Below, in pieces: positions 1 to 63,300 of a stretch of 64,000 bases of DNA; the first letter of the stretch is position 1; the number at the start of each line of letters is the position of its first letter. The notes beneath the pieces were generated by a model that saw only the letters and a list, made by a program, of their open reading frames with translations, did no database searches and was not told the DNA's origin. Location: NCBI GenBank assembly GCA_031213475.1, contig JARUPZ010000024.1, positions 9,613,324 to 9,677,323 of the forward strand, written 5' to 3'. Position numbers and translations under genes: made by a program. Source of the stretch: Nereocystis luetkeana (lineage: Eukaryota; Sar; Phaeophyceae; Laminariales; Laminariaceae).

Positions 1-920
1 GTTACTACAGTAGTAATAGCAACAAATAAGTACCTTCTTTTTTAGGTTTTTGTCTGCTATTAATGGTCTCCTTTTTGCTTCCCTGGTGTCCGCAGTGGTG
101 GAGTGCGTATGCTTGTTTTTTGTTTTTGCCTCTGTTTTTGCTTGAGGTATTTCTTCCACTCCAGAGTTATTGGAGCCTGTCCTGCGACCACGGACTGCAT
201 TGAATTGTGAGTTAATGTGAGGACAACAACAACAACCCGGTAATATATAACGTTGACGCCAAATTGACGTTTCTTAAGAGTGACACGAGTACACGATTAC
301 TCTGTTTGGCTTTTTTTGTTCAAAAGCACTGAAAACTGAAAATATGATTTGAAAATAAGAGAATACGAAAATACCTACTGCTGATGCGTCTGCCATACGA
401 GTATACGCGTTGTGGTACTCATCATATACCAGGTAGACAATCACGGCTCGATCTCGAGATTTTTCCCAACCTCATGTCTCTTCAGCCCGCTTAAAAAAAA
501 CTCAGAAAACCGTTTTGCCCAAAATTGGCGCTGCTGACGCTGCTTTCGCCTCCAGCGACCGGCAACCTCCATCCACTTGTGTGGAACGCTTGGTTGTGAC
601 GTTCGTGGGACGGGTTATGTCAATATTCGGGGGACGAGTCCTGATCGAGGTTAGCTTGGGGGTTAAGACGAGTCGAGCGTAACCTTCTTCACCATCGGTT
701 CGATTCGGCATCAACTTTGTTTGGAGCGATATTGCGATATTGCCTGGTGGCTGTGCCTATCGGCGTGCGATCCAGGTGCTCAGTGCGTAGTGGACCCTGC
801 TGGCGACTTTTTTTGCTCGGAGGGTCAGTTTGAAGGACTCAGGCCCGGGTGGAATCAGGTCGGCGTGGTATCAAGCATACCAAACATTAAGGCGTGGCTC
901 GATAATTTTGTCGGACCTCG
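1..920. other. No supportable gene
   Basis: The first 200 bp resemble 44.80-44.90 kb (ACTCCAGAG...GGAGCCTGTCCTG and GCGACCACGGACT). At 490-715 a GC-richer block is open on both strands, but I see no family match or splice context. Confidence 0.4.
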
Positions 921-1010
921 ACTCTTTTAGGACCGCAGTGCCGTTTTGGACACAAACGACTTATAATTTTGAGTGTATTGTCCCCGATTGGGACTGCGGT
1001 CCTGAAGGGG
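921..1010 (+). mobile_element. CCCTTTTAG-type TIR element
   Basis: CTTTTAGGACCGCAGTGCCG at the left and GACTGCGGTCCTGAAGGGG at the right are inverted. About 90 bp, non-coding. Confidence 0.75.
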
Positions 1011-60300: not shown

Positions 60301-63300
60301 AAACTGCTTTTAATGTCCCGAAATACAAAAAATGGATTATATGTTACTATACAAATGGTTTTTATATTTCGGGACAGGGTGATATTTTTTATATAATTAT
60401 CGAATCGATACGATTTCGATACTCGATACGTCAAAAAATTATTTCAGTATCACTTGAAAAAATACAGGGGTACGGGGGTACCAGGGGATGGAAGGCCGAA
60501 ACGAGAGCCGAAATTCGATATGTCGATGTATCGGAATTTTCGATACAATATTCTACATTATCAATGGTTAGAGATGATGAGGATGATGATGATTGTGTCG
60601 TCGGTATTGTTGGGGGTGCTTTTTGTTGTTGGATCAACCGTGCTTCTTATTTTTAATAGCTTGATCGTGTGTAGGGTTGGAGTCAGGCCTTGCCCATCAG
60701 TACGAGTAGTACTATGCTGCGTGCGTCTCGTACATGATTGTTGTTCTTGGTGCTTTTGTTGGGTGATTATGATGGTGGTGGTGATGTGGTAGCTGTTGAC
60801 GACGATGATGCTGATGACGATGATGCTGGTGTTGATGACGTCGATATTCACAATCCCATATTCATTGCGGCGCTTCACTGGATGAACAGGCGTACGCTGG
60901 GTCATGGGGAGACGGTGCTTCGGCTTGCGAGCCCACCGCCAACGGTGGATACCCTAAGGATAAAACCAGGCGAGCATGCAAACTCTTTATACATCTTTTA
61001 CTCCTTTCTATTAATAGCATGAGTAGAAGCCTTCAACCCCACCTACCTTCCGGAAACAAACTATAGTAGTACTGCGTGAATTCAGAGTTTCAAAGTAGGG
61101 TATAATTTGCATGTTTTTTGCAGTAGGAGCAATGGTATCCTTGCGGCGTCAGTCTTGAGGCTACCTATTAATAGTATACCTGGTACTGTTTAGTCCTGGT
61201 TTGTTTTCGGTTCTGTGCTGCTTCAAGGCACACAGGGGGGGCGAGCCGGATGAGAATGTCCTTTAATTCGTAGATTTTAAAGTGTAGAACATTTTTGCGG
61301 ACGGTAGAAAAAGAGACAACGCTTTTACGAGGGAATATACTGTAGTATACCTCGTAATCAGAACCAAACATGGCCAGTAAAAGGTTGGGGGATATGTGGT
61401 TTTTGGGTCTATCGGGGCTCTGGTTACTGTTGCCTCCCGTAATGGTTATGTTCTCTCCCTCGTTGCTGGCCGGTTCGCGGCCTTCATGCCAGACGATAGA
61501 ATAGTTGGTCGCCATCTTCAAATATGCAGCGGACGATTCGGTCACTTTAACGCTCCACGACAAGAGCGGCGTTTTCTTATCAAAACAGTACAACGATGTG
61601 CCCGCGACATGTGTTAGTATAAGCTACCGGATTAGTTCGGAAGAGGAGGTTTTGGAAAAAGTTGTCCTTACGCCCTCCCTTTTTTGTGTTTCCTGCGCGT
61701 TCGCGTCTTGGCTTCGTCGTCTCGCGGTGCCCCTCGCTTTTGCTTGGTTTATGTGATTCCCGGCGTTATATCCTCTACGTTTTGTCCTGTCCTGTCCTGC
61801 CCTGTGGTGTCCGGTCCTGTAATGATGCCATGCCATGTCGTGTTCCGCCCTGTATGTGTCATGTCATGTTATGTCCTGTCACGTCCTATAGTGTCACATC
61901 AGGCTATACGTCTGTCACATCATGCTACATCGTGTCGCATCATGCTATATCGTGTAGTTTCATGCCCTGTCATACAATGGGTCCTGACATGTGATGCTAA
62001 GTCTTGTCCTACCCTGCGCCGCGTCCTATGGCCCTGTTTGTTGGTTTGGTTCAGCTACAATTCTGCCACTCTGCGCGCCTTCAATATATTGGTCGAGGCT
62101 AGCGAGACCAAGAGCCCTAAGCAGGTGAGATGCGGTAGGAGCAACGACAACTGTAGCGGTAATTGTAGCAGTAACGGTAACGGTAAATGTAGCGTCAGCG
62201 GTAACTGTATTGGTAGCGGTAACTCTATTGGTAATAGCGGCGGTAGCGGTAACGGCAATGGTACCGGTAACGGTAGCGGCAACGGTAGCGGCAACGGTAG
62301 CGGTAACGGTAAGAATGGCTATAGCGGTGGCAGCGGTAACGGAAACGGTAACGGTAGCGGTGGCTGAAGCGGCAGCGGCAACAGTAGCGGTAGCGATAGC
62401 GGCAACGGTAGGGGTAACGGTTGTGGGAAACCAATACATTAGTAGGATTACTTGAGCTAGCTCTACAAGCCTAAAGCGGTGAACACCGGGGGGCGTAGTA
62501 ACGGCAGCGGCGGCAACGATAGTGGTAACGGCGGTGGTGTTGGTAATGGTGACGGTAGCGGGCACCTAGCCGTAGAGCTGGCTCTTACCTTCGGTTCTTG
62601 GATGATGAAGCTACTCTACTGTCTCTGCTGGGCTGTACTGTATTGTACTGTACTGCGCGGTACTTTACTGCACTGCCCGTACTATACTGTACTGTGCTGT
62701 CTCTGTCTCTCTCTCATATATGTTGGTGACGCCGGCGACCTCTGCAGTTGGTAATGCGAATGCAAGCAGCGTACGCCGACTACCGCCGCCGCCGCCGCCC
62801 GTGAGAACCCATCGCTGTTGTCCCTGGTTTCGTTGCGCATTAAATACGAGTGCAATACCGGTGTTCCTTTAGTTTTTCCATACTACAGTAGTATGCCTTA
62901 CATGTGTTCAGCTCGTTGTGCCCTCCGTTTGTAGGCCGTGTCACCCTCTCACCAAGTCATAACAAACTTCTGCTTTAAGGCATTATCGAAGTAATGTGTA
63001 CCCACTCCTGCAACCCTATACCCCTCACCCACAAAAAACACACCATAACATACACCTCACACATATCATACACCTCATGCACGCCGTTCACCTCATACAC
63101 TTTTGTGTGTTACTCCATGCACCTCATACACCCTATACACCCAACACACCTCGTGCACCTTATGCGCACCCCCTCATGCACCCCATACACATCATACACA
63201 CCATACGCCGCATACACCTGATATACCTGATACACCAAATATACCTGATACACGTGATACACCTGATGCACCTCGTATACCGCGCAGTCCTTGCTAGGAT

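Follow-up and report, generated by a model that had tools for sequence, protein, structure and literature searches.

TACCWGGTA sites in the window and across the genome

The 64,000-nucleotide stretch of the brown alga Nereocystis luetkeana analyzed here (assembly GCA_031213475.1, contig JARUPZ010000024.1; G000:C24:9613324-9677323, hereafter the window) is scattered with a palindromic 9-mer, TACCWGGTA, whose copies are called scars below, in keeping with the transposon excision that we regard as their probable origin. A pattern search found exactly 42 of them, the number counted in the original prediction, with all 16 coordinates quoted there included. The expectation under a first-order Markov model was 0.54, agreeing with the earlier estimate of ~0.5, and the excess itself was borne out, although it amounts to ~78-fold rather than ~90-fold. 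The scars are listed by exact match to TACCWGGTA (+, TACCAGGTA; -, TACCTGGTA), with an alignment named where it is the basis of the entry.

427..435, +, TACCAGGTA scar
1073..1081, -, TACCTGGTA scar
1102..1110, -, TACCTGGTA scar
1189..1197, -, TACCTGGTA scar
2711..2719, +, TACCAGGTA scar
4453..4461, +, TACCAGGTA scar
4739..4747, -, TACCTGGTA scar
5280..5288, -, TACCTGGTA scar
6440..6448, +, TACCAGGTA scar
7812..7820, -, TACCTGGTA scar
8078..8086, +, TACCAGGTA scar
9402..9410, -, TACCTGGTA scar
10151..10159, +, TACCAGGTA scar
10976..10991, no single strand, tandem pair TACCAGGTACCTGGTA, opposite orientations, one TA common to both scars
15502..15510, -, TACCTGGTA scar
21514..21529, +, tandem pair TACCAGGTACCAGGTA
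22670..22678, -, TACCTGGTA scar
25393..25401, -, TACCTGGTA scar
25574..25589, -, tandem pair TACCTGGTACCTGGTA
29643..29651, +, TACCAGGTA scar
32437..32445, +, TACCAGGTA scar in tandem unit 2, empty site in unit 1 (unit alignment)
32543..32551, +, TACCAGGTA scar in tandem unit 3, probably duplicated along with the unit (unit alignment)
32609..32617, +, TACCAGGTA scar in tandem unit 3, empty site in unit 2 (unit alignment)
33777..33785, -, TACCTGGTA scar
36420..36428, -, TACCTGGTA scar
37336..37344, -, TACCTGGTA scar within the repeat copy at 37279-37390 (MITE alignment; see below)
37396..37404, +, TACCAGGTA scar adjoining that copy, outside it
38204..38212, +, TACCAGGTA scar
38284..38292, -, TACCTGGTA scar
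38721..38729, -, TACCTGGTA scar
39091..39099, -, TACCTGGTA scar
39555..39563, +, TACCAGGTA scar
40159..40167, -, TACCTGGTA scar
40399..40407, +, TACCAGGTA scar
48334..48342, +, TACCAGGTA scar
50351..50359, +, TACCAGGTA scar
51541..51549, -, TACCTGGTA scar
53664..53672, +, TACCAGGTA scar
61177..61185, -, TACCTGGTA scar

The excess extends to the whole genome (465,085,209 bases in 1,987 contigs), as the original prediction had anticipated: TACCWGGTA occurs 182,395 times compared with 1,744 for a reversed control pattern, a 105-fold difference and a density of 0.39 per kb, and at 7 bp each the exact scars sum to ~1.28 Mb, or 0.27% of the assembly. A 264-kb sample, comprising the window and one set of 20 10-kb stretches on contigs C1-C20 (an L followed by a number denotes a sampled locus), holds 130 sites, 129 of them in unique context, against 2.6 expected under a second-order Markov model, and among all TA-N5-TA words in this sample TACCWGGTA has the highest enrichment. 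The density is highly uneven, the individual 10-kb stretches having anything between 0 and 22 sites. The original prediction placed none of the window's sites in a definable exon; with long open reading frames (ORFs) taken as a loose proxy for exons, 28 of the 130 sites fell in ORFs of at least 150 codons, compared with 35.7 expected from TA counts; the corresponding numbers were 8 and 11.9 for at least 200 codons, 1 and 4.6 for at least 250, and 0 and 2.6 for at least 300.

The motif arises by a 7-bp insertion at TA

Repeat copies with and without the motif were compared in two settings. In the tandem units after 32338, AACCTATATG in one unit has become AACCTACCAGGTATATG in another, and unit alignment confirmed the contrast of empty and filled units after 32394 that had been described before. 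The second setting is a 105-bp miniature inverted-repeat transposable element (MITE), TTACGGGG...CCCCGTAA, which is flanked by TA and is represented in the window by these copies:

23137..23241, no strand assigned, MITE TTACGGGG...CCCCGTAA, bordered by TA left and right, without the 7-bp insert (empty reference in the MITE alignment)
32292..32396, no strand assigned, MITE TTACGGGG...CCCCGTAA, empty copy (MITE alignment)
37279..37390, no strand assigned, MITE TTACGGGG...CCCCGTAA, filled by one 7-bp insert (MITE alignment)

The last of these accounts for the difference between 106-bp and 99-bp elements noted earlier at 37282, which is indeed one 7-bp insert. Across 35 aligned copies, some of them partial, the MITE consensus is empty, and clear 7-bp inserts were found in L010_6293, L015_8848, the filled window copy at 37277 and two related partial copies at window 32427 and 32533. 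These inserts occupy two different TAs and occur in both orientations; a further copy, L013_7448, carries TACCTGGTA without a clean 7-bp alignment. Counting exact copies only, the empty MITE word AACATATAGGTTTTTATG occurs 2,913 times genome-wide and its counterpart in which the second TA carries TACCWGG 167 times, so that 5.4% are filled. An all-against-all comparison gave further 7-bp gaps at scar sites, among 60 positions with 7-bp gaps, many of which are unrelated.

In these repeats, then, the motif is a derived state and not the ancestral one, and the sites examined there are 7-bp insertions in which CCWGG enters beside a TA and doubles it, as originally proposed. A derived insertion made of the doubled target plus a few nucleotides is what a TA-transposon footprint should be, and the TA target-site duplication is that of Tc1/mariner elements.

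Target preference, tandem scars and decay

Alignment of 108 unique sites (from the 264 kb and L001, with 22 tandem sites dropped) revealed a palindromic target preference of the form (T/A)A-n-n-A-n-R-[TA]-Y-n-T-n-n-T(A/T), extending ~7 bp on each side. After symmetrization, the flanks show T/A at -7, A at -6, A at -3 and A/G at -1, and the signal fades by -8 to -9; such a symmetric preference is transposase-like, as expected of a footprint. Tandem scar pairs are also abundant, with 15,917 genome-wide compared with 2 in the control, and the scar itself is a good new target that has been hit again.

Single-base variants bear on the age of the scars. In the 264 kb, one-mismatch variants of TACCAGGTA number 110 compared with 59 expected, the larger excesses being mostly transitions, and exact copies far outnumber every one of these variants. 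The scars therefore seem to decay by mutation like ordinary DNA, and not all of them seem recent. Viral contigs were also considered and set aside, since the nine contigs matched by the tandem 16-mer carry only 2-3 TACCWGGTA sites each, as chance would give.

Longer and shorter forms of the scar

A 6-nt form, TACCWGGGTA, is present 13,000 times in the genome compared with 771 for its control, and is represented in the window by the following sites:

8665..8674, -, TACCAGGGTA, 6-nt scar form (half-site listing)
8831..8840, +, TACCAGGGTA, 6-nt scar form (half-site listing)
19799..19808, +, TACCAGGGTA, 6-nt scar form (half-site listing)
20243..20252, -, TACCAGGGTA, 6-nt scar form (half-site listing)
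34534..34543, +, TACCAGGGTA in the tandem array 34489-34680, may belong to the repeat rather than be a scar of its own (half-site listing)
55819..55828, +, TACCAGGGTA, 6-nt scar form (half-site listing)

This form is strand-asymmetric: among its first 100 places, 93 read CCAGGG and 7 CCTGGG, a tally which, like the other counts of listed places below, was made by eye on the first places from the first contigs and not on a random sample. Eight of the 93 come from one array, and dropping seven of these leaves 86 to 7. Extrapolating the 93% to all 13,000 gives ~12,000 CCAGGG sites. The array in question, at G000:C1:1304145-1308353, is satellite-like, with eight TACCAGGGTA mostly exactly 528 bp apart.

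The target preference of the 5-nt scar is shared by the 6-nt sites (7 sites, p 0.003), by a 4-nt form, CCAG (27 sites, p 0.0004), and by CCATGG (3 sites, p 0.03). A 2:1:1 split of AG/CT, AT and CG centers in the 6-nt class (27:13:9, arrays collapsed by eye) was considered as a sign of independent mismatch repair and dropped, because the CG sites lack the target preference and GA/TC centers are also common. Within the first 2.2 Mb of C1, TACCGAGGTA/TACCTCGGTA make up 16 of the first 100 TACCNNGGTA places, more than other unpredicted centers, and could represent another scar family.

Other scar-like words

A census of words from TA-N3-TA to TA-N6-TA in the 264 kb identified further candidates. 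TACAGTA occurs 108 times against 42 expected (~2.6-fold), and TACGAGTA, with CGAG between TAs, 51 times against 9.9 (~5-fold); we take CAG to be the scar of Sleeping Beauty and CGAG that of Minos. TATTAATA, the palindrome TA-TTAA-TA (for example at window 1116, 2819 and 4882), has 69 unique sites against 1.9 expected and matches the ends of the 105-bp MITE. These TTAA words prefer C at -1, A at -2 and T at -3 (C-TA-G), in line with the flanks of the MITE itself, where C precedes the left TA in 10 and G follows the right TA in 7 of 16 listed copies (one an overlapping duplicate). Genome-wide, TACTATTAATAGTA occurs 1,131 times compared with 1. The TTAA, CGAG and CAG words differ from TACCWGGTA in target preference, as expected for different enzymes. 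Some enriched TA-flanked words stem from simple repeats and repeat families, and TACAGCAGTA, with 30 unique contexts against 0.7 expected, is perhaps tied to ACTACTGCTGTG repeats such as that at window 2010-2132.

A proposed excision mechanism

We consider it highly probable that TACCWGGTA is the excision scar of a TA-integrating cut-and-paste DNA transposon. This reading is favored because the strand-asymmetric 6-nt class CCAGGG, with its shared targets, serves as an independent test of it. The transposon would have 5'-CCAGGG ends, and its transposase would nick 5 nt, sometimes 6, inside each end. Two 5-nt CCAGG overhangs could then pair at four of five positions around a central A:A mismatch to leave one stereotyped scar, a pairing that would explain why this product dominates. 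With nicks placed inside the ends, a rarer scar with one extra base would reveal the next base of the element, and from the asymmetry of the 6-nt class we infer that the end reads 5'-CCAGGG. Repair of the A:A mismatch is likewise a presumed step; TACCAGGTA and TACCTGGTA are reverse complements of each other, so the W reflects orientation only and is uninformative on the mismatch. Each jump would leave one scar, and a few copies jumping many times could in principle suffice for all 182,395. To leave so many scars while showing few copies or none is unusual for a TA cut-and-paste transposon.

A bolder version, to which we give slightly less than even credence, posits a new transposase lineage that targets TA, cuts 5 nt inside the element ends and has made at least 182,000 jumps within a single algal lineage, with hardly any copies left in residence. 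The past jumps of such a 'ghost' transposon would be recorded in its scars, and either a few copies would hop ceaselessly without amplifying, or the tissue that was sequenced would have lost its copies by removal.

Search for the element and evidence against an excision origin

Several results weigh against an excision origin, among them those of the search for the element. The original prediction of an excision footprint stands as regards the derived insertion at TA and the genome-wide excess, with the 6-nt class in support, whereas the element that it called for, with terminal inverted repeats starting TA-CCAGG, did not appear: 343 kb of sequence, in which 154 scars lie, yielded no CCWGG-ended element, in a search that would miss copies present less than about once in 343 kb or exceeding the sampled stretches of 3-10 kb (window apart). 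The TA-flanked inverted repeats listed gave no full element of this kind either. Half sites, defined as TACCWGG without a following TA, number 96 in the 264 kb compared with ~75 from the Markov model, an excess that fits decayed scars, and the flanks of 119 half sites resemble background. As for transposase genes, Pfam DDE_1, which we take to denote pogo-type transposases, has 28 matches in the genome, but none of the 13 of these genes examined in part (12 loci and L055) shows CCWGG or CCAGGG ends, and Pfam DDE_3, expected of a Tc1/mariner element, gave no match at E 0.001 among 30 scored candidates from the genome.

Departures from the simple model also count against it. Mixed repair of 6-nt overhangs should also yield CCCGGG, a frequent word that nonetheless lacks the target preference (10 sites, p 0.71) and so lends the model no support; CCGG lacks it too (19 sites, p 0.48). 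No orientation bias is predicted, yet the filled MITE site has 65 CCTGG to 35 CCAGG in its first 100 places (p 0.004), and in 59 plus-strand tandem pairs 40 have the same orientation and 19 opposite ones (14 CCAGG-TA-CCTGG, 5 the reverse; p 0.009). Moreover, two one-mismatch transitions show no excess in the 264 kb, and some enriched TA-flanked words are not readable as scars, for example TAATAGTA, with 60 against 4.4.

Within the 343 kb, 59 left and 62 right half sites form 117 within-locus pairs; judged by the best 12 of the 117, no pair resembles terminal repeats and the inner sequences match in one pair only. This best pair is a 26-bp hairpin at L022 9715-9744, TACCTGGCAGGCG-TCAT-CGCCTGCCTGGTA, a short TA-flanked structure with CCWGG ends, possibly a shrunken remnant of the element or a chance arrangement. 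With relaxed CCAGGG ends, the best 25 of 151 pairs were other families or MITE copies sharing a scar. The TACCAGGGCTCTT half-site family was tried as the source element and set aside, because its boundary is T-rich, not TA, in most members and it looks like another repeat; the family starts near TACCAGGGCTCTT, and its members at L021 8845, L025 3022, L011 6273, L016 3731 and window 9152 have a GGGTC-rich interior.

Among the DDE_1 genes, L029 and L030 with added flanks showed no terminal repeats, and likewise L055. One DDE_1 family has CAGTACCGGCC ends at TA, which would fit the CAG scar. TA-flanked inverted repeats with these ends lie at L018 6006-8055 and L039 235-2422, among the matches listed, and the L039 copy contains a DDE_1 match with one stop. 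Pfam searches of six window ORFs returned no family for any of them.

Alternative origins

The failure to find an element with matching ends would suit a templated micro-insertion, in which TACCAGG is added to a broken TA, with no transposon involved, by a telomerase-like or other RNA-templated polymerase or by some route of DNA repair, and so would the frequent same orientation of tandem copies (40 of 59). Such an enzyme would not account for a palindromic target preference over 16 bp, for both orientations at one oriented MITE site, for a CCAGGG form with the same targets or for the other TA words of this genome that look like scars, one of which still has its MITE, and we regard this origin as quite unlikely. 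An element with unequal ends, CCA on the left and GGG on the right, cut with the usual 3-nt stagger, could give CCAGGG by fill-in and CCAGG by loss of one G. That CCAGGG is seen while CCTGGG is rare speaks for it, as does the 3-nt stagger being the norm of Sleeping Beauty and mariner (PMC7827188). It is nevertheless about equally unlikely in our view, as the product shorter by 1 nt would have to be ~15 times commoner (182,395 compared with the extrapolated 12,000) with no pairing to favor it.

The motif could also be a short functional site, bound by a protein or acting in chromatin, that selection or gene conversion has spread or maintained, and a palindromic 9-mer whose exact copies lie far above any one-mismatch variant has that appearance. 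Already disfavored by the empty sites, which show the motif arising through a 7-bp length change at TA, this explanation also sits poorly with the mutations that accumulate in the motif, with sites at more than one TA within MITE copies and with a density that varies between 0 and 22 sites across the 20 10-kb loci, and we hold it to be very improbable.

Other repeats and gene families

A repeat of ~345 bp at window 8232-8581 has ~40 genomic matches, among those listed, at 93-97% identity, and is thus young and abundant; it was also most of what a 20-kb query for allelic contigs returned. EsV-1-7 domains matched in all 150 candidates scored of the genome (1,710 at first look) and in none of 14 control genomes; these domains have proliferated in brown algae, according to PMC12477816. 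The genome also has 68 light-harvesting protein matches, one of which in turn matched light-harvesting chains in the PDB, including several labelled as fucoxanthin chlorophyll a/c proteins.

Relation to known systems and implications

A parallel in overhang pairing is Minos, the footprint of which we take to be CGAG, formed from non-palindromic overhangs with central mismatches. Minos resembles the proposed mechanism in these overhangs, and CGAG between TAs is enriched in this genome, whereas CGAG is 4 nt long and differs from CCWGG in sequence and target preference. The titles listed from open-licence literature include none on a single stereotyped scar in such numbers, on the motif itself or on algal scars of this kind. 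The phrase '7 bp footprint' does occur in three papers, on potato, Nicotiana and grapevine. To our knowledge, no link exists between the DNA transposons of Ectocarpus and CCAGGG ends. That brown alga is comparable in having many DNA transposon families, with Mariner-Tc1 and giant KDZ/EnSpm/Sola-1 elements, some >10 kb, described in PMC12477816; neither 'footprint' nor 'excision' appears in the main text of that paper.

Footprints of TA transposons are already known. In Sleeping Beauty (TA + 3 nt), the scar is the overhang copied from the element end, according to PMC7827188, and the algal scar is like those of Tc1/mariner elements in its TA target with duplication and in its palindromic preference, an AT preference of this kind being described for the relative ZB in PMC7913693. 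It is unlike them in length, as 5 nt, less often 6, lies outside the 2-4 bp quoted for Tc1/mariner in the same source, and in that >180,000 scars are accompanied by no element found. Excision traces have likewise been read from genome comparison in rice, where, according to PMC4423477, 8 of 94 putative excisions were perfect and the rest had deletions or filler, unlike the single stereotyped scar found ~182,000 times here. The claim of a TA-transposon footprint is stronger than any claim of family membership.

If the excision reading is true, the genome of N. luetkeana would preserve ~182,000 cut-and-paste events of a single kind that can be counted and dated, and from these the rate of jumping, the choice of targets, the fidelity of repair and the length of the overhangs could be measured directly. 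The inferred CCAGGG end makes the hunt for the element and its enzyme concrete, and scars, not copies, could then be the main trace that a transposon leaves.

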